Assembly (NCBI RefSeq): GCF_014695575.1
Contig: NZ_JACJOO010000072.1
Coordinates: 1 to 64,000 of the forward strand
Direction: 5' to 3'
Source: Leptolyngbya sp. FACHB-8
Lineage (GTDB): Bacteria; Cyanobacteriota; Cyanobacteriia; Elainellales; Elainellaceae
Length of the DNA stretch: 64,000 nt
Under the pieces are notes generated by a model. The model saw nothing but the letters and a program-made list of their open reading frames with translations, did not search any database and was not told the origin of the DNA. Below, in pieces: positions 7,682 through 18,553 of the stretch (position 1 is its first letter; every line of letters starts with the position of its first letter). The position numbers and the translations under genes are program-made.

Positions 7682-11416
<3,735 letters not shown>

Positions 11417-12052: not shown

Positions 12053-12811
12053 GTGGCAATTCCTCTGTTACAGTACAACCCCTCCAGCCAAAACCAGCGA
12101 GTTGCTGGTTACGAGGTTGGAAGCGATGAGCAACCCCGTCTCTTCTCGACGGATAACCTGCTCTCGCCAAGTGATATGGATAACTTGATTGAAGCGGCTT
12201 ACCGTCAAATCTTTTTCCATGCGTTTAAAGCAGACCGGGAAGTAACTCTTGAATCCCAGCTGCGGAATGGGCAAATCACAGTACGTGATTTTATTCGTGG
12301 TCTATTGTTGTCTGATCGCTATAAGCGCAGCTTCTATGACTTGAATAGCAACTATCGTTTTGTTGAACAAACTGTTCAGCGCGTTCTGGGCCGGGATGTT
12401 TACAGCGAACGCGAAAAAATTGCTTGGTCCATCGTAATCGCGACCAAAGGTATTGCTGGCTTCTTCAACGATCTGTTGAACAGCGACGAGTACCTGGAGA
12501 ACTTTGGTGATTCCATCGTTCCCTATCAGCGTCGTCGAGTTCTGCCCGGTCGCACTGCTGGTGAGCTGCCTTTTAATATCAGGTCTCCTCGCTACGACGA
12601 ATACTACCGTGGTAAGTTTGGCTTCCCGCAAATCGTCTGGCAGACCACTGTTCGGAGCTTCAAGCCCCAAGACAAAGTTGCTCGTGCTGGCGATCCAGCA
12701 AGTTTCCTCGATATGGCTCGTAGCTTGGATGCGCGCGGTAGTGCTCCCCAAAGCCTGTCAGCTCAGAATGTTGATTACCTAAACGCTGTACCTTACCGCA
12801 AGGTTGGCTAA
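12053..12811 (+). CDS. cpcG: phycobilisome rod-core linker CpcG
   Basis: CpcG attaches phycocyanin rods to the allophycocyanin core. The 252-residue protein starts at a GTG ([17 protein letters not shown]), a typical CpcG N-terminus. It has one linker domain at about residues 40-180, with [38 protein letters not shown] and a closing [11 protein letters not shown]. The C-terminal part is soluble and has no terminal membrane helix, unlike CpcG2/CpcL proteins that build photosystem-I-associated rods, so it is a CpcG1-type linker. It lies alone between apcE and a DUF1818 gene, away from any cpcBA operon in the window, and is followed by its own terminator. Confidence 0.96.
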
Positions 12812-13404: not shown

Positions 13405-14377
13405 GGACTACTTGTACAGGAAATATGCCTTCTCGAGCAAAACCAGCCTACTATGGCCGTGACTGAGTTGCTTCTGTACAGCTTCTGTACATATGTTGTA
13501 ACAAATCAATTCTCCTTATACTCGTAGCTATTTGAACCAGGACAAAAAGAGAGGGTGCCAAGCGCCCTCTCTTTTTGTCTTATAGCCTGTGTTGTGTTAG
13601 TTAGCCTGAGTTCGGATTAAGTACTAGCTTAAACGGCTGTAGCCATAGATTTGCTTGATCAGCCAATATGTGCCATCGAGATCAGCAATACCATTCAAAT
13701 ATATTTTGTAGATGAGTTTGGAAGTTGACACAATAGGCAACAAATCAGCAAAGTGATTCCGTATTATTTCGGATTTAAGAGAAGTAGTAGTTTTAAACTG
13801 AAAAATAATCCGTGTTTCCGCTTATAGTCTCTATTTCGTTTCTATTAAGTTGGGAAAAATGAAGTCTTTTTCCGGATAACTATTAATGATTTAGAAGACG
13901 TACTAATGTGCGTTTTGGTTTTATAGTAAGTCGTTAGAAATCCTTTATTACAGCGCTTTTTATGCTTTTCTCTTAAATAAGATTCCATATTCTTCCTGAT
14001 GTATTTGTATGTCCTAGAAAGGAGTATAAGAACATTGGAAATAATTGAAAGTGCTTCATTGGACTTCGACTTTTTTCTAAGGTTCATTGTTAGTCTGACC
14101 TGTGTTTTGGGAAAGATACAATTGTCTCCCTCCACAGGGCATCTGCTAGAAAACCCCTAGCTATTTCCTTCTTAAGGAAATCGCCCGTTGACATTGTAAT
14201 TGCGGCATATTGTGCCTTTAAGGCTCCGTTCTTAGATGCTCTGATGATTATTCGGAAATCTTTGAATGTTCAAAAATGTCTAATCCAAGCAATTGTCTTG
14301 GCAATGTTAACTTCTGTTGGGTAGGGGAGTCAGTTTATTTCATTGCTCACACGTACAAAGTTTTAGGTGGTTTAACC
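13405..14377. other. 973-bp AT-rich region upstream of gvpA
   Basis: No convincing gene. It contains a 15-bp hairpin at 13541-13579, a solo end resembling repeat family C (CCTGAGTTCGGATTAAG, about 13603-13619), the 11-mer GCTGTAGCCAT (13636-13646) in reverse orientation relative to family A, and a small hairpin at 14163-14181 (ATTTCCTT/AAGGAAAT). TTGACA occurs at 14188-14193, but its spacing to the nearest TATTGT is only 14 bp. The gvpA promoter is expected somewhere here. Confidence 0.6.
13541..13579. repeat. 15-bp hairpin, arms related to the one at 35752
   Basis: GACAAAAAGAGAGGG (13541-13555) pairs with its complement ending at 13579. The outer arm GGACAAAAAGAG is shared with the hairpin at 35752-35800, although the inner arms differ. 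Confidence 0.8.
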
Positions 14378-14596
14378 ATGGCTGTTGAAAAAGTAAACTC
14401 TTCCTCCAGCTTGGCCGAAGTAGTTGATCGGATTTTGGATAAAGGCGTTGTTGTTGATGCGTGGGTTCGCGTATCTCTGGTTGGTATCGAACTGCTGGCT
14501 ATTGAAGCTCGCATCGTTATTGCTTCCGTTGAAACCTATCTGAAGTATGCAGAAGCTGTTGGTCTGACTGCTCAGGCTGCTGTTCCCTCCGCATAA
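14378..14596 (+). CDS. gvpA: gas vesicle major structural protein GvpA
   Basis: GvpA forms the ribs of the hydrophobic gas-vesicle wall that gives buoyancy. It has 72 residues and the highly conserved core [20 protein letters not shown] followed by a hydrophobic beta-hairpin and [23 protein letters not shown] 14378 was chosen because AGGTGG lies nine bases upstream and the start [12 protein letters not shown] is the standard one. It is a single copy in this window; Anabaena clusters can carry several. A strong hairpin follows, and gvpC-N-J-K continue downstream. Confidence 0.98.
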
Positions 14597-14778: not shown

Positions 14779-16077
14779 GTGGCTGCTCTCAAGGATCAAT
14801 GGAAAGAGCAAAGACGCCAGCGGCAGTTGGAACTGGAGCGACGTCAGAGAGATGTGCGCGAAGTGCTGGATGGGTTTCAGCAAGAGCGGCAGGCCATGTC
14901 TGCTCAGCTTCGGAGTGAATTGAGTGCCTTCCAACAGGCAGTTCAAGAGGAGACACAAAGTTTTCTGGCTGATGCCTATCAGAAACGGCTGGCAAATGCA
15001 AAAGTAGTCGCTGATGCATTGCAGGCTTATAAAGCTAATCTGCATGAGCAGGTAGCTCAATTTCTTTCAGTCACGTCGGCAGAGCGATCGCTCATGTCCC
15101 AGGAGCTGTTTCAAGCTCTAGAGGCATTCCATGCATCACTGTCCGCCTCAGTTGCCGATTTGCGCTTAGCGCTGCAACAGCGCATGCAAGAAATTCAATT
15201 AGAAGTACAAGTTCTGCAGGCCGACACCCAGGATATGCTGGTGGGCTTCAAAGAACAACGAATTCAAGAGCAGCAACGGCTCCTAGCAGAACTGGCTGCT
15301 TACGTAGACGGTCTGCGGGATGACGTCCATGCGTACCTGTCGGAGTTAGAGTTGGCGCGGGTAGATCGGGCTAACCAGCTGTGGGCTATGCTCCAACAGA
15401 GCCGGGATAACCGTGCTGTTGAAATGGAAGCCCTGATGACCGAGTTTGCTGAGTTCCGCAACTACTTACAGAGCTATCGGCAGTCTCTCCACAATCTCGT
15501 GTGGGGCAACGGCGAAGCATCTGTAGAACCGCAACCTCCTGCTGTGGCTCCTCAACGTAAGGTTGCCGCTGCACCAGTTCGTGGATTCCGCCCGGTTCGC
15601 CCTGTCGCGACTGCCCAACCGAAAGTTGAGCTGCCCAAGGCGCCTCGTAGTATCCCACCAACTCCCGCTGCTGCTACACCCGCTTCTGAGCTACCGAACG
15701 TTGTAGCGCCCCCAAAGCCTGAGCCACCCAAGGTTGAGCCGCCGAAGGTGGAAGAATTCGCGCCGGCTCCCGTCATCCTTGCTGAAGCATCTTCTTCTAT
15801 CGATAGCCTTGAGGCGTTGAGCGAAGCAATTCCTTTGCCAGCGGTCAAAACTGAGTCTGTAGAAGAAACACAGCCTGCACTTCGTGATCCTGCTCAGTTA
15901 GAAATGGATATTTTCAAGTACATCCAGGCCATCAATGGCGCACGCCTAACTGAGATTGAGACAGCTCTCAGCATTAACCGCTTCCAGGCTGTTGATGCTC
16001 TCCGCTCGCTCATTAAGAAAGGCAATGTGACCCAGCGCGATCGCATCTATCTGATTCCTGAGGAAGTGAACCTGTGA
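14779..16077 (+). CDS. gvpC: gas vesicle protein GvpC with C-terminal winged-helix-like module
   Basis: GvpC binds the outside of the vesicle and strengthens it against collapse. The GTG start at 14779 is set by GGAGGAGGT six bases upstream. Residues 1-245 are helical and hold degenerate GvpC repeats of about 33 residues (for example [15 protein letters not shown] and [12 protein letters not shown]), closing with a short LVWG motif. A Pro/Ala/Val-rich linker runs from about 246 to 370. The last 60 residues ([20 protein letters not shown] onward) look like a winged helix and resemble the end of GvpN. At 432 residues it is much longer than Anabaena GvpC (about 193). Its stop overlaps the gvpN GTG start. 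Confidence 0.93.
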
Positions 16078-17327
16078 CTACTGTCCTACAAGCCCGCCCC
16101 CGAAACTTTGTCAGCACGCCTGCCATTGAGCGTGTAGCAGCCCGTTCCCTCCGTTACCTGCAATCCGGCTATTCCGTTCACTTGCGGGGACCGGCAGGTA
16201 CTGGCAAAACGACTCTGGGTTTGCACCTGGCTGATATGCTGGGGCGGCCCATCATGCTCCTGTTTGGCGACGACGAGTTCAAAACCTCTGATTTAATCGG
16301 TAACCAGACTGGTTACACCCGTAAAAAGGTGGTGGATAATTTCATCCACAGTGTGGTCAAGGTTGAAGATGAATTGCGCCAGAATTGGGTGGATTCGCGT
16401 CTAACTCTGGCTTGCCGAGAAGGCTTTACCCTGGTTTACGACGAATTTAACCGTTCTCGCCCTGAGGTTAACAACGTCCTACTGGCGGCCCTGGAAGAAA
16501 AGCTGCTGGTGTTACCCCCCAGCAACAACCGTCCCGAGTACATTCGAGTCAGTCCTCACTTCCGCGCCATCTTCACCTCGAACCCAGAGGAGTACTGTGG
16601 CGTACATGGAACCCAGGATGCGTTGCTGGATCGTTTGATTACCATCAACATGCCGGAGCCGGATGAGCTGACCCAACAGGAAATCGCTGTCCAGAAATCC
16701 GGCATTGATCGAGAGAGCGCCAGTATCATCGTGCAGTTGGTTAAAGCCTTCCGCGATCGCGTTGGAGCTGACAAAGCTTCCGGGTTGCGGGCCTGCTTGA
16801 TGATCGCGCGTATCTGCCATGAGCACGAAATTGTTGTGACGCCTGAGAACGTCGAGTTCCGAGATATCTGTCAGGATGTGTTGCTGTCTCGCAGTGAGCT
16901 GTCCCAACAGGATTCCACTCGTCTGCTCTGGGACGTTTTCAATGAGCTGATCTGTGCAGAAGTGCGGGAATCAGATGTGGCGATCGCCCTCAACGTACCG
17001 GATCTCGAAATCCTGGATTTGGATTCGAGTATCACGCCCAATGGGGTTGTTGAAGATTCTCTGGCCGAGACTGTGCGTGCCTTGCAAGGGGATGAGCCTG
17101 TTGCGGGAACTGAGGAACCCTCTGTCGAGGTTTCTGACGTGCCTCACGAACAGGAGGTCTACCGCTATTTGCAAGACCATCCTCGGGCTCGGACTTCAGC
17201 AATTCAGGCAACATTGAGGCTGAGTCGCGTACAGGTCATCGACGCTATTCAATCCCTATCCCAAAAAGGGCTCCTGCCGATTCAAGGCGAAACTGATACA
17301 GCGCAATCCATTTCTGAGGAGGGCTAA
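16074..17327 (+). CDS. gvpN: gas vesicle AAA+ ATPase GvpN with C-terminal extension
   Basis: GvpN is a MoxR-type AAA+ ATPase needed for gas-vesicle growth. The Walker A motif GPAGTGKTT is at residues 39-47, Walker B is LVYDEFNR near 123, and the sensor region is [15 protein letters not shown]. The core ends near residue 300. A further 115 residues follow: an acidic linker and then [20 protein letters not shown] onward, a helix-turn-helix-like module homologous to the C-terminus of GvpC. At 417 residues it exceeds the roughly 330-360 I expect for GvpN. The GTG start overlaps the gvpC stop as GTGA, indicating coupling. Confidence 0.95.
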
Positions 17328-17332
17328 TCATC

Positions 17333-17671
17333 ATGACGGCTACGGTTCCAGTACGTCCTACTGCTTCCAGCCGCCCGATGCTTACGTCTACCCAGGGATC
17401 TGGCCTGGCTGATGTTCTTGAACGGGTGCTGGACAAGGGAATTGTGATTGCAGGTGACATCACCGTTTCGGTCGGTTCGACCGAGTTGCTCAATATTCGG
17501 ATCCGATTGCTAATTTCTTCGGTAGACAAAGCCAAGGAGATTGGGATCAATTGGTGGGAGAACGATCCCTACTTAAGTAGCCGATCGCAAGAACTCCTGG
17601 ACGCTAATCAGCAGCTCCAGACCCGCATCGAAAGTCTTGAACGCGAGTTGAAAGCGCTCCGGGGTGCCTAA
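17333..17671 (+). CDS. gvpJ: gas vesicle protein GvpJ
   Basis: Minor GvpA-family protein thought to help nucleate vesicle assembly. Residues 24-75 match the GvpA core (GLADVLERVLDKGIVIAGDI followed by TELLNIRIRLLISSVDKA). The C-terminal region (SSRSQELLDANQQLQTRIES onward) is a charged coiled coil absent from GvpA. The 112-residue size fits GvpJ. ATG 17333 is five bases after the gvpN stop, with GAGGAGGG upstream, so it is in the same transcription unit. Confidence 0.95.
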   Translation: MTATVPVRPTASSRPMLTSTQGSGLADVLERVLDKGIVIAGDITVSVGSTELLNIRIRLLISSVDKAKEIGINWWENDPYLSSRSQELLDANQQLQTRIESLERELKALRGA

Positions 17672-18064: not shown

Positions 18065-18553
18065 GTGGCGATGTCTCCCTCCGAAGCCTCTGATGCTCCC
18101 ATCCAAATTGCCCCCGGCGGCGCGTTAGATTCTCCTAAAAAGGGCAAAGATGCTGGCTTGGCTCCCCTATTGCTGACGGTAATCGAACTTGTGCGTCAGT
18201 TGATGGAAGCACAGGTGATTCGCCGTATGGAAGGGGATGAGCTAAGCGAAACTGATCTGGAACGAGCCGCTGACAGCGTGCGTAAGCTCGAAGAGCAGGT
18301 TATACGCCTCTGCGAAATTTTTGAAATTGATCCGGCCGATCTCAATGTAGACCTTGGGGAATTCGGTACATTGTTGCCTAAAACCGGAGGCTACTACCCC
18401 GGTGAGACCTCCGCCAGCCCGACTATTCTCGAATTACTCGACCGTTTGCTGAGCACTGGCGTGGTGCTAGAGGGGGATGTAGATTTGGGACTGGCCCAGA
18501 TCAATCTAATTCATGCCAAATTACGGCTGGTTTTGACCTCTAAGCCTCTATAG
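18065..18553 (+). CDS. gvpK: gas vesicle protein GvpK
   Basis: GvpK is a conserved minor protein required for gas-vesicle formation. The 162-residue product contains the family core GLAPLLLTVIELVRQLMEAQ and IRRMEGDELSETDLERAADS, then GEFGTLLPKTGGYYPGETS. Its last 45 residues (ILELLDRLLSTGVVLEGDVD onward) resemble the GvpA/GvpJ core. The start is GTG 18065 or ATG 18071. It is the last gvp gene here; gvpF, gvpG, gvpL, gvpV and gvpW are not in the window, and the next gene runs in the opposite direction. Confidence 0.96.
   Translation: MAMSPSEASDAPIQIAPGGALDSPKKGKDAGLAPLLLTVIELVRQLMEAQVIRRMEGDELSETDLERAADSVRKLEEQVIRLCEIFEIDPADLNVDLGEFGTLLPKTGGYYPGETSASPTILELLDRLLSTGVVLEGDVDLGLAQINLIHAKLRLVLTSKPL

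Follow-up and report, generated by a model that had tools for sequence, protein, structure and literature searches.

A predicted winged-helix domain shared by the C-terminal ends of the gas vesicle proteins GvpC and GvpN in cyanobacteria

The DNA analyzed here, called the window, is a 64-kb stretch of Leptolyngbya sp. FACHB-8 (assembly GCF_014695575.1, contig NZ_JACJOO010000072.1, positions 1-64,000, forward strand). It carries a gas vesicle gene cluster in which gvpA, gvpC, gvpN, a gvpJ-type gene, and gvpK follow one another on the plus strand (Table 1). The start of gvpA was set by the N-terminus MAVEKVN..., which is also present in a second gvpA copy; the first start codon of the open reading frame (ORF) lies upstream, at 14276. 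GvpN passes the cutoff of TIGR02640 (394.1 versus 266.8 bits), and GvpC passes that of TIGR02641, the model of the cyanobacterial 33-residue repeat (20.6 versus 18.8 bits), but it stays below the cutoff of the Pfam GVPc repeat, PF01304 (18.5 versus 21 bits). A preliminary description of this DNA had called both proteins long and their linkers Pro-rich (GvpC) and acidic (GvpN), and all of this is borne out: the compositions are given in Table 1, and the lengths of 432 and 417 aa compare with 127 to 245 aa for the ORFs that precede gvpN where both C-terminal modules are missing, not all of which are confirmed as GvpC, and with 293 to 424 aa for module-less GvpN in other loci.

Table 1. Features of the gas vesicle gene cluster, in positions of the window
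Feature	Position	Strand	Evidence
gvpA, main shell protein	14378..14596	+	PF00741 E 4.6e-16; NCBIfam GvpA 6.5e-40
gvpC, 432 aa	14779..16077	+	NCBIfam gvpC_cyan_rpt 20.6 bits; location between gvpA and gvpN
GvpC Pro/Ala-rich linker, residues 245-368	15511..15882	+	22% Pro, 18% Ala
GvpC C-terminal module, predicted winged helix, residues 369-432	15883..16074	+	AlphaFold pLDDT 92.2; alignment of GvpC tails
Helix 3 and wing of the GvpC module, residues 401-425, conserved basic face	15979..16053	+	Residue conservation, net charge
gvpC/gvpN overlap, 4 bases	16074..16077	+	ORF coordinates
gvpN, 417 aa	16074..17327	+	NCBIfam gas_vesic_GvpN 394.1 bits, cutoff 266.8
GvpN AAA+ core, residues 12-273	16107..16892	+	TIGR02640 match range 12-273; Pfam AAA_5 2.4e-16
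GvpN acidic linker, residues 306-356	16989..17141	+	25% Asp+Glu, 2% Lys+Arg
GvpN C-terminal module, residues 359-399, three predicted helices	17148..17270	+	AlphaFold of residues 353-417; homology to GvpC module
gvpJ-type gene, GvpA-like domain	17333..17671	+	PF00741 2.3e-15; best NCBIfam GvpJ, 59.4 bits, below cutoff 125
gvpK with C-terminal GvpA-like domain	18065..18553	+	PF05121 GvpK 1.4e-30 and PF00741 5.2e-14, same ORF

One domain is present in two copies, as the last ~60 residues of GvpC and as ~40 to 55 residues close to the C-terminus of GvpN. In a BLASTP comparison of the two proteins, residues 375 to 415 of GvpC aligned without gaps to residues 359 to 399 of GvpN, with 15 of 41 positions identical and 28 of 41 positive (E = 5e-6 for this single comparison), and this was the sole significant match between both proteins. 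The ungapped alignment of the preliminary description, with 14 identities counted in 40 residues, was thereby reproduced, and the mutual profile similarity on which it had made its claim depend was found as well: a profile of 42 GvpC tails matched one of 47 GvpN tails with an E value of 1.8e-33 over 63 columns. Module profiles built from other loci, without the window sequences, were run on the 1206 stop-to-stop frames of the 64-kb window. With the profile of 55 GvpC modules, GvpN ranked second, directly after GvpC (iE 3.7e-11); the profile of 63 GvpN modules retrieved GvpC (6.9e-22) and GvpN (4.9e-20), and no further frame fell below an iE of 0.3 with either profile. Likewise, the GvpC tail, searched against the genome of the organism with a limit of E 10, retrieved, besides GvpC itself, solely GvpN (3.8e-4). 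Recent copying or gene conversion between gvpC and gvpN was considered and is not supported: the similarity of GvpC and GvpN modules from the same genome is barely above that of shuffled pairs (115.4 versus 112.1; 23 of 5000 shuffles reach the observed value, relatedness not removed), and a joint tree of the modules is compatible with a single clade of GvpC modules.

The AlphaFold model of the GvpC module (pLDDT 92.2, pTM 0.77; input alignment of 42 sequences with 59% mean column identity) has, in module numbering, helices at 3-17, 22-29, and 33-45, a bridge at 20, and strands at 50-52 and 55-57. This layout, helix-strand-helix-helix-strand-strand, is the order of a winged helix (wHTH). For residues 353 to 417 of GvpN (47 sequences, 43%), three helices were predicted with confidence (7-16, 22-29, and 33-46; mean pLDDT of the model 78.3), and from about residue 50 onward the pLDDT is about 50 and the wing unresolved. 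Other GvpN modules keep a wing-like end, for example a Tyr at position 56 in 53 of 78. The earlier idea of winged-helix-like tails agrees with the model of GvpC, which includes the wing, and with that of GvpN as far as the three helices go. Neither model had a Foldseek match at an E value of 0.001 or better. The best matches of the GvpC model (E of 1.8e-3 and up, query TM of 0.58 to 0.84 among the matches listed) are winged helices, mostly of DNA binders and with a cullin WHB domain included, and VIA-align gave Z scores of 9.6 to 11.3 over the best 50 matches, mostly winged-helix chains, among which Z-alpha, MarR, IclR, ROK, and ESCRT-II chains are listed. Matches of the GvpN model were all weak (E of 0.11 or worse) and included FtsK gamma and Lrp-type domains. 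Searched against solved structures, a joint profile of GvpC and GvpN modules found a Z-DNA-binding domain as its best match (E = 4e-4), and the best match of a GvpC-only profile had an E value of 0.03. Furthermore, Pfam TrmB was matched at an E value of 0.1 or better by 45 of 49 modules (best 2.9e-9), a MarR-type PHROG by 35 of 49, and the Sta1 regulator family by 17 of 49, the latter two at 0.01 or better. The TrmB (PF01978) cutoff of 25.6 bits was not reached by GvpC (13.9 bits) or GvpN (19.3 bits) of the window as whole proteins, nor by the GvpC module alone (18.5 bits). Taken together, sequence comparison and structure prediction support the homology of the tails and a winged-helix fold well, the wing being predicted for the GvpC copy.

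Arg33, Val37, Leu43, and Tyr56 (module numbering) are identical in all 64 GvpC modules, as is Glu26 in helix 2. Helix 3 and the wing together carry a net positive charge in 64 of 64 GvpC modules (mean +3.2) and in 59 of 78 GvpN modules (mean +1.9); helices 1 and 2 are net acidic on average, and the module as a whole is slightly acidic (mean -0.66 in GvpC and -1.05 in GvpN). Two such faces would fit proteins that join head to tail, and they would equally fit nucleic acid. Values of dN/dS, which are rough because many pairs have a dS near or over 1, range from 0 to 0.24 for the module (21 of 26 gene comparisons yielding a value) and from 0.11 to 1.5 for the linkers (18 of 26). Conservation of the module exceeds that of the core of GvpC in each of the 13 pairs of related loci compared. 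The modules are under purifying selection, and the linkers are less constrained.

The preliminary description had left the occurrence of the module in other gvp clusters to a profile search; the module was found in many cyanobacterial GvpC and GvpN proteins. A scan for GvpN, one of whose six search patterns lies within the module, yielded 80 loci, and a family search over 386 phylum-wide cyanobacterial genomes added the loci of the 30 best matches; 20 further stretches were included later. The resulting locus table leans to close relatives, a bias from which the 386-genome sample is free. In that sample, GvpN scored over its cutoff in 56 genomes. The module scan, which scored at most 16 candidates per genome and may therefore miss weaker relatives, produced 46 matches above 50 bits, the next match having 35 bits. 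Of the 56 genomes whose GvpN passes the cutoff, 26 contain these strong matches; of the 330 others, none does. Judged by position and frame, 42 of the 46 lie in GvpN or in the gene directly upstream and 4 in a GvpC-like gene downstream, so that 19 of the 56 GvpN genomes have the module in both proteins, 7 in GvpN only, none in GvpC only, and 30 in neither. The GvpC-type carrier is located ~5 kb downstream of gvpN, behind a gvpA, in 4 of the 19 genomes with both modules; the GvpC-like genes of loci L147 to L150 are the sole ones found in their 14- to 15-kb stretches. Among those listed, most of the weak matches of the scan (35 bits or less) come from one other family of the phylum, and most lie in frames of about 130 to 200 aa.

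Among 110 tabulated gvpN loci, 49 have the module in GvpN and the upstream ORF, 19 in GvpN only, 8 in GvpC only, and 28 in neither, with two loci misplaced in these counts: L025 has both modules, and L045 is not a GvpC-only locus but has a frameshifted GvpN module. In L025, a frame change within the linker interrupts gvpC, and the GvpC module follows behind it. In the remaining 6 loci, the contig offers no ORF upstream of gvpN; 4 of these loci carry the GvpN module. The table includes the window and some near-duplicates between the searches; four duplicates of the window (L003, L005, L006, and L116) were dropped. Whole-genome searches were carried out for 27 loci. Each of seven GvpC-only loci had one match; of twelve GvpN-only loci, ten had one match, L025 had two, and L071 had three, because a second gvp cluster in that genome carries both modules; among the eight loci classed as lacking the module in both proteins, seven were without a match and one had a remnant with two stops. 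The seven GvpC-only and ten GvpN-only genomes indicate that neither copy of the module needs the other. In the genomes scanned, the module is restricted to GvpC and GvpN. Further carrier proteins were sought in the locus set, and none turned up beyond GvpN and the upstream ORF, except for two window fragments truncated where a locus ends and the frameshifted GvpN remnant in L045. No module was detected in six non-cyanobacterial GvpN proteins from 30 plasmid records (three alphaproteobacteria, one gammaproteobacterium, and two haloarchaea) or in five genes upstream of them (best iE 0.12).

To follow gain and loss, near-identical rows were removed from the data sets (130 to 99 for the tree of GvpN cores, 146 to 114 for the joint module tree, and 56 to 41 for the Mantel test). 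On the quick tree of 99 GvpN cores, the state of the GvpN module changes 17 times and that of the GvpC module 7 times, which may be one too many since L025 was coded as lacking the GvpC module. The GvpC module is missing, in the loci seen, from a 28-row clade of Nostocales and others (support 100). Within this clade, the GvpN module changes 8 times on a branch length of 2.85, compared with 9 times on 19.99 elsewhere (binomial 5e-4), a crude comparison that relies on parsimony counts and a quick tree and whose clade was chosen post hoc; when L045 and five long-branch module-less rows are left out, the changes outside the clade drop from 9 to 4. L071 was coded as lacking the GvpC module in the tree, rate, and residue comparisons despite its second cluster with both modules. 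Frameshifts or stop codons mark remnants of the module behind GvpN in the Dolichospermum-type loci L083 to L085, L091, and L092, in L097, and in L045 (search span 0.9 kb behind GvpN; weak matches of 7 to 8 bits in L111 and L112 were set aside). Dolichospermum lacks both copies, and Planktothrix rubescens lacks the GvpC copy; some bloom-forming cyanobacteria have shed part or all of the shared domain.

The residues of the GvpN module also differ with the presence of the GvpC copy. In 13 GvpN modules from loci without a GvpC copy, E26 is found in 8%, V37 in 0%, and D38 in 0%, compared with 87%, 70%, and 44% where GvpC has the module, and E7, L40, L43, Y56, and R54 are retained; the shift lies mostly in one clade and amounts to about one event. 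At equal core divergence, the GvpN module is not consistently more diverged where GvpC lacks it, which speaks against a simple loss of constraint. An independent-pairs test on the tree was not significant, with too few pairs, and there was no clear coevolution of the two modules beyond that of the core (partial Mantel r 0.12, 385 of 5000). A strict GvpC-GvpN pair is not supported by these two tests, nor by the genomes with the module in only one of the proteins. A role common to GvpC and GvpN, the broader suggestion, gains indirect support from the confinement of the strong matches of the 386-genome scan to gas vesicle genomes and from the rate of change of the GvpN module in the clade where GvpC lacks it. 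In the joint module tree, which has 61 columns only, a single clade of GvpC modules was not rejected (AU p 0.83); judged from the sequences, the GvpC and GvpN modules may go back to one old split.

What could such a domain do at the end of both a coat protein and an ATPase? Our preferred explanation, put forward tentatively and open to real doubt, is a protein docking domain of vesicle assembly, through which the GvpC coat would be linked and GvpN kept at the growing shell. Flexible linkers would connect the winged-helix copies with the shell-binding helices in GvpC and with the AAA+ core in GvpN. On the vesicle surface, the GvpC tails might touch one another and give rise to a mesh; the diverged GvpN copy may join or compete in these contacts and could open the mesh, and the ATPase would thereby be kept where GvpA is inserted. 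In genomes without the GvpC copy, the GvpN copy would need another partner, perhaps GvpN itself. We infer which partners bind, that a mesh forms, and that GvpN opens it; the idea of a mesh comes from haloarchaea. A shared docking domain would explain why the module is present in both neighbors, why the GvpC copy is strongly constrained, and why the GvpN copy was lost repeatedly where the GvpC copy is absent; it explains poorly why many genomes keep the GvpN copy without the GvpC copy. In its favor we counted the presence of one module in two adjacent, overlapping genes, the confinement to GvpN genomes, the purifying selection, the rate of change and the residue shift of the GvpN module where the GvpC copy is absent, and the GvpC-GvpN contact in Halobacterium. 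Counted against it were the one-sided genomes, the lack of clear coevolution, the non-significant independent pairs, the mostly DNA-binding fold neighbors, the different GvpC end of Halobacterium (a zinc finger), and the non-cyanobacterial GvpN proteins examined, which are without the module.

The module could alternatively be a nucleic-acid-binding winged helix, by which GvpC would tie the vesicle surface to the nucleoid for its placement and its sharing at cell division, or GvpC and GvpN would bind gvp promoters or mRNA in a feedback of vesicle state on expression. We consider this somewhat unlikely. It would agree with the predominance of DNA-binding proteins among the neighbors (a Sulfolobus DNA-binding protein, Z-alpha, IclR, MarR, and the centromere binder AspA), with the Z-DNA-binding domain as best match of the joint profile, with the widespread TrmB matches, and with the basic helix 3 and wing. 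However, the modules as a whole are slightly acidic, the wing of the window GvpN copy is unresolved in the model, the TrmB matches of both window proteins remain below the curated cutoff, and protein-binding winged helices (cullin WHB, ESCRT-II) are among the neighbors as well. Furthermore, neither GvpC nor GvpN is known to us as a regulator, which we also counted against nucleic acid binding. In a bolder form, the vesicles of many cyanobacteria would be coated with nucleic-acid-binding winged helices: the GvpC tails would fasten them to gvp mRNA or the nucleoid, GvpN would share the domain, growth, placement, and expression would thereby be coupled, and some planktonic bloom formers would have shed the domain. 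In this form, the idea is plainly unlikely.

It is also imaginable, and in our estimate decidedly unlikely, that both modules bind a common third partner (another Gvp protein such as GvpF/L, GvpK, GvpV, or GvpW, or a host protein) and not each other. This would account for the GvpN-only and GvpC-only genomes and for the absent coevolution, and in haloarchaea GvpN and GvpC are described as having common partners, among them GvpL, GvpF, GvpK, and GvpO (PMC9501494). Yet for the module these are candidate partners only, and to produce the rate bias of GvpN in the 28-row clade, the partner would have to be lost or changed there too. Alternatively, the domains could dimerize or cross-link homotypically, GvpC with GvpC on the shell and GvpN with GvpN in its ring, after one old duplication and with no contact between the two proteins. 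With a single clade of GvpC modules not rejected, the two copies may have parted long ago, and each copy is kept without the other, as this explanation would have it; it leaves unexplained why the GvpN module changes more often, and why its residues shift, without the GvpC copy, both of which come with the caveats given above, and it appears very unlikely to us. Scarcely credible is a chance similarity of disordered tails or a functionless relic. The loss of the GvpN module in several lineages, with remnants behind the GvpN stop codon in Dolichospermum-type loci, was counted in its favor; the confidently predicted GvpC fold and the purifying selection contradict it. Chance similarity of the two tails is ruled out by the profile comparison and by shuffling: the local score of 83 for the GvpC and GvpN tails was reached by 0 of 20,000 shuffled GvpN tails, with a maximum of 50.

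The module bears on two questions of assembly that are described as open, the delivery of GvpN to the growing shell and the role of GvpC besides stiffening (PMC11445434, PMC9501494). A conserved domain common, in the genomes scanned, to just GvpC and GvpN offers a testable handle on both, and the GvpC tail could serve as a natural attachment point on engineered vesicles. Dolichospermum and Planktothrix rubescens are much-studied gas vesicle lineages, and the module may have been overlooked because some such lineages lost one or both copies (Dolichospermum both, P. rubescens that of GvpC).

The preliminary description knew of no account of the similarity, and in this it has to be corrected. Pancrace et al. 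(2017; PMC5259702) had already noted that 28 residues of the C-terminus of GvpC40 of benthic Planktothrix are 64% identical to Planktothrix GvpN; the figure legend places the stretch N-terminal and the main text C-terminal, and the GvpC end is also compared with that of one Geitlerinema GvpC. Strain PCC 11201 of that study is among our loci (L069) and has both modules, like the window. The portions of the article drawn on here give no fold, domain, or mechanism, nor a spread of the GvpN similarity beyond Planktothrix. A description of the fold or spread of the shared module was not found in the open-license literature, a body of text that older gas vesicle papers may escape. Hence, the proteins, the cluster, and the similarity in Planktothrix are known; new, as far as found, are the fold, spread, and history of the shared domain.

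A comparable system is that of Halobacterium salinarum. There, GvpN contacts the C-terminal part of GvpC, according to pulldown and split-GFP data (Jost and Pfeifer 2022; PMC9372576); in haloarchaea, both GvpN and GvpO attach to the C-terminal domain of GvpC, and fragments of GvpC attach to GvpC itself (PMC9372576). In a review, it is suggested that GvpC molecules may be joined into a mesh via their ends and that GvpN may interrupt the mesh where GvpA is inserted (PMC9501494). The GvpC end of Halobacterium is small and globular and contacts GvpN (PMC9372576), a likeness to the window GvpC tail, for which such a contact is proposed here by analogy. Unlike the predicted winged helix of the window, it is described with a zinc-finger motif (PMC9372576, PMC9501494), and GvpN and GvpC of a Halobacterium locus (L171) gave no match to the module. 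The two ends are best regarded as analogous, homology not being supported.

An arrangement similar to that of GvpN, a motor followed by a tethered winged helix, recurs in FtsK, a DNA motor that ends in a winged helix, the gamma domain. This domain is among the best Foldseek matches of the GvpN module, and with E values of 0.14 or worse it resembles the module in shape only; to our knowledge, GvpN is not a DNA translocase. The winged helices of the TrmB/MarR type (PF01978 and relatives) have the same fold as that predicted for the module and a distant sequence similarity to it. These domains are parts of transcription regulators, whereas the module forms the end of a coat protein and of an AAA+ ATPase.

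The GvpC-like proteins encoded beside a module-less GvpN in three of the fetched cyanobacterial gvp loci (L163, L164, and L166) continue, after the linker, into a different short C-terminal stretch of the DRERVRDLLARGA type, which has the look of a helical domain and gave no match to the profiles built from the GvpC and GvpN module sequences. This end may represent an alternative C-terminal domain. In four other genomes (L147 to L150), the GvpC-like gene with the module sits behind a gvpA and not between gvpA and gvpN, and no further GvpC-like gene was found in the fetched stretches of these loci.

Remnants of the GvpN module, interrupted by stop codons or frameshifts, are present 3′ of the gvpN stop codon in L083, L084, L085, L091, L092, and L097; Dolichospermum/Anabaena-type loci are among those with such remnants. 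Locus L160 has two gvpN genes with starts ~4 kb apart, each adjoined by a GvpA-like gene, and both GvpN proteins are devoid of the module.

Features in the window and in the fetched loci (L, numbered within each locus)
Feature	Position	Strand	Remark
gvpN	L046:6174-8423		749-aa product; linker ahead of module almost 400 residues
Module-bearing GvpC-like gene	L147:4782-5591	-	~5 kb downstream of gvpN
Same	L148:4522-5220	-	~5 kb downstream of gvpN
Same	L149:4364-5071	-	~5 kb downstream of gvpN
Same	L150:4542-5156	-	~5 kb downstream of gvpN
GvpC-like protein	L163:3638-4678		Beside module-less GvpN
Same	L164:3583-4608		Beside module-less GvpN
Same	L166:2017-3120		Beside module-less GvpN
gvpK	window 18065-18553		C-terminal GvpA-like domain (PF00741, 5.2e-14)
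Second gvpA	L152:4354-4572		Very similar; contig C10 of the FACHB-8 assembly
Large ORF	window 8138-11416		Upstream of gvpA
Large ORF	window 12053-12811		Upstream of gvpA

Within the 12.6 kb fetched around the second gvpA, probes for GvpA, GvpN, and GvpC gave no match to any further ORF. The two large ORFs ahead of gvpA in the window appear from their sequences to encode putative phycobilisome linker proteins.
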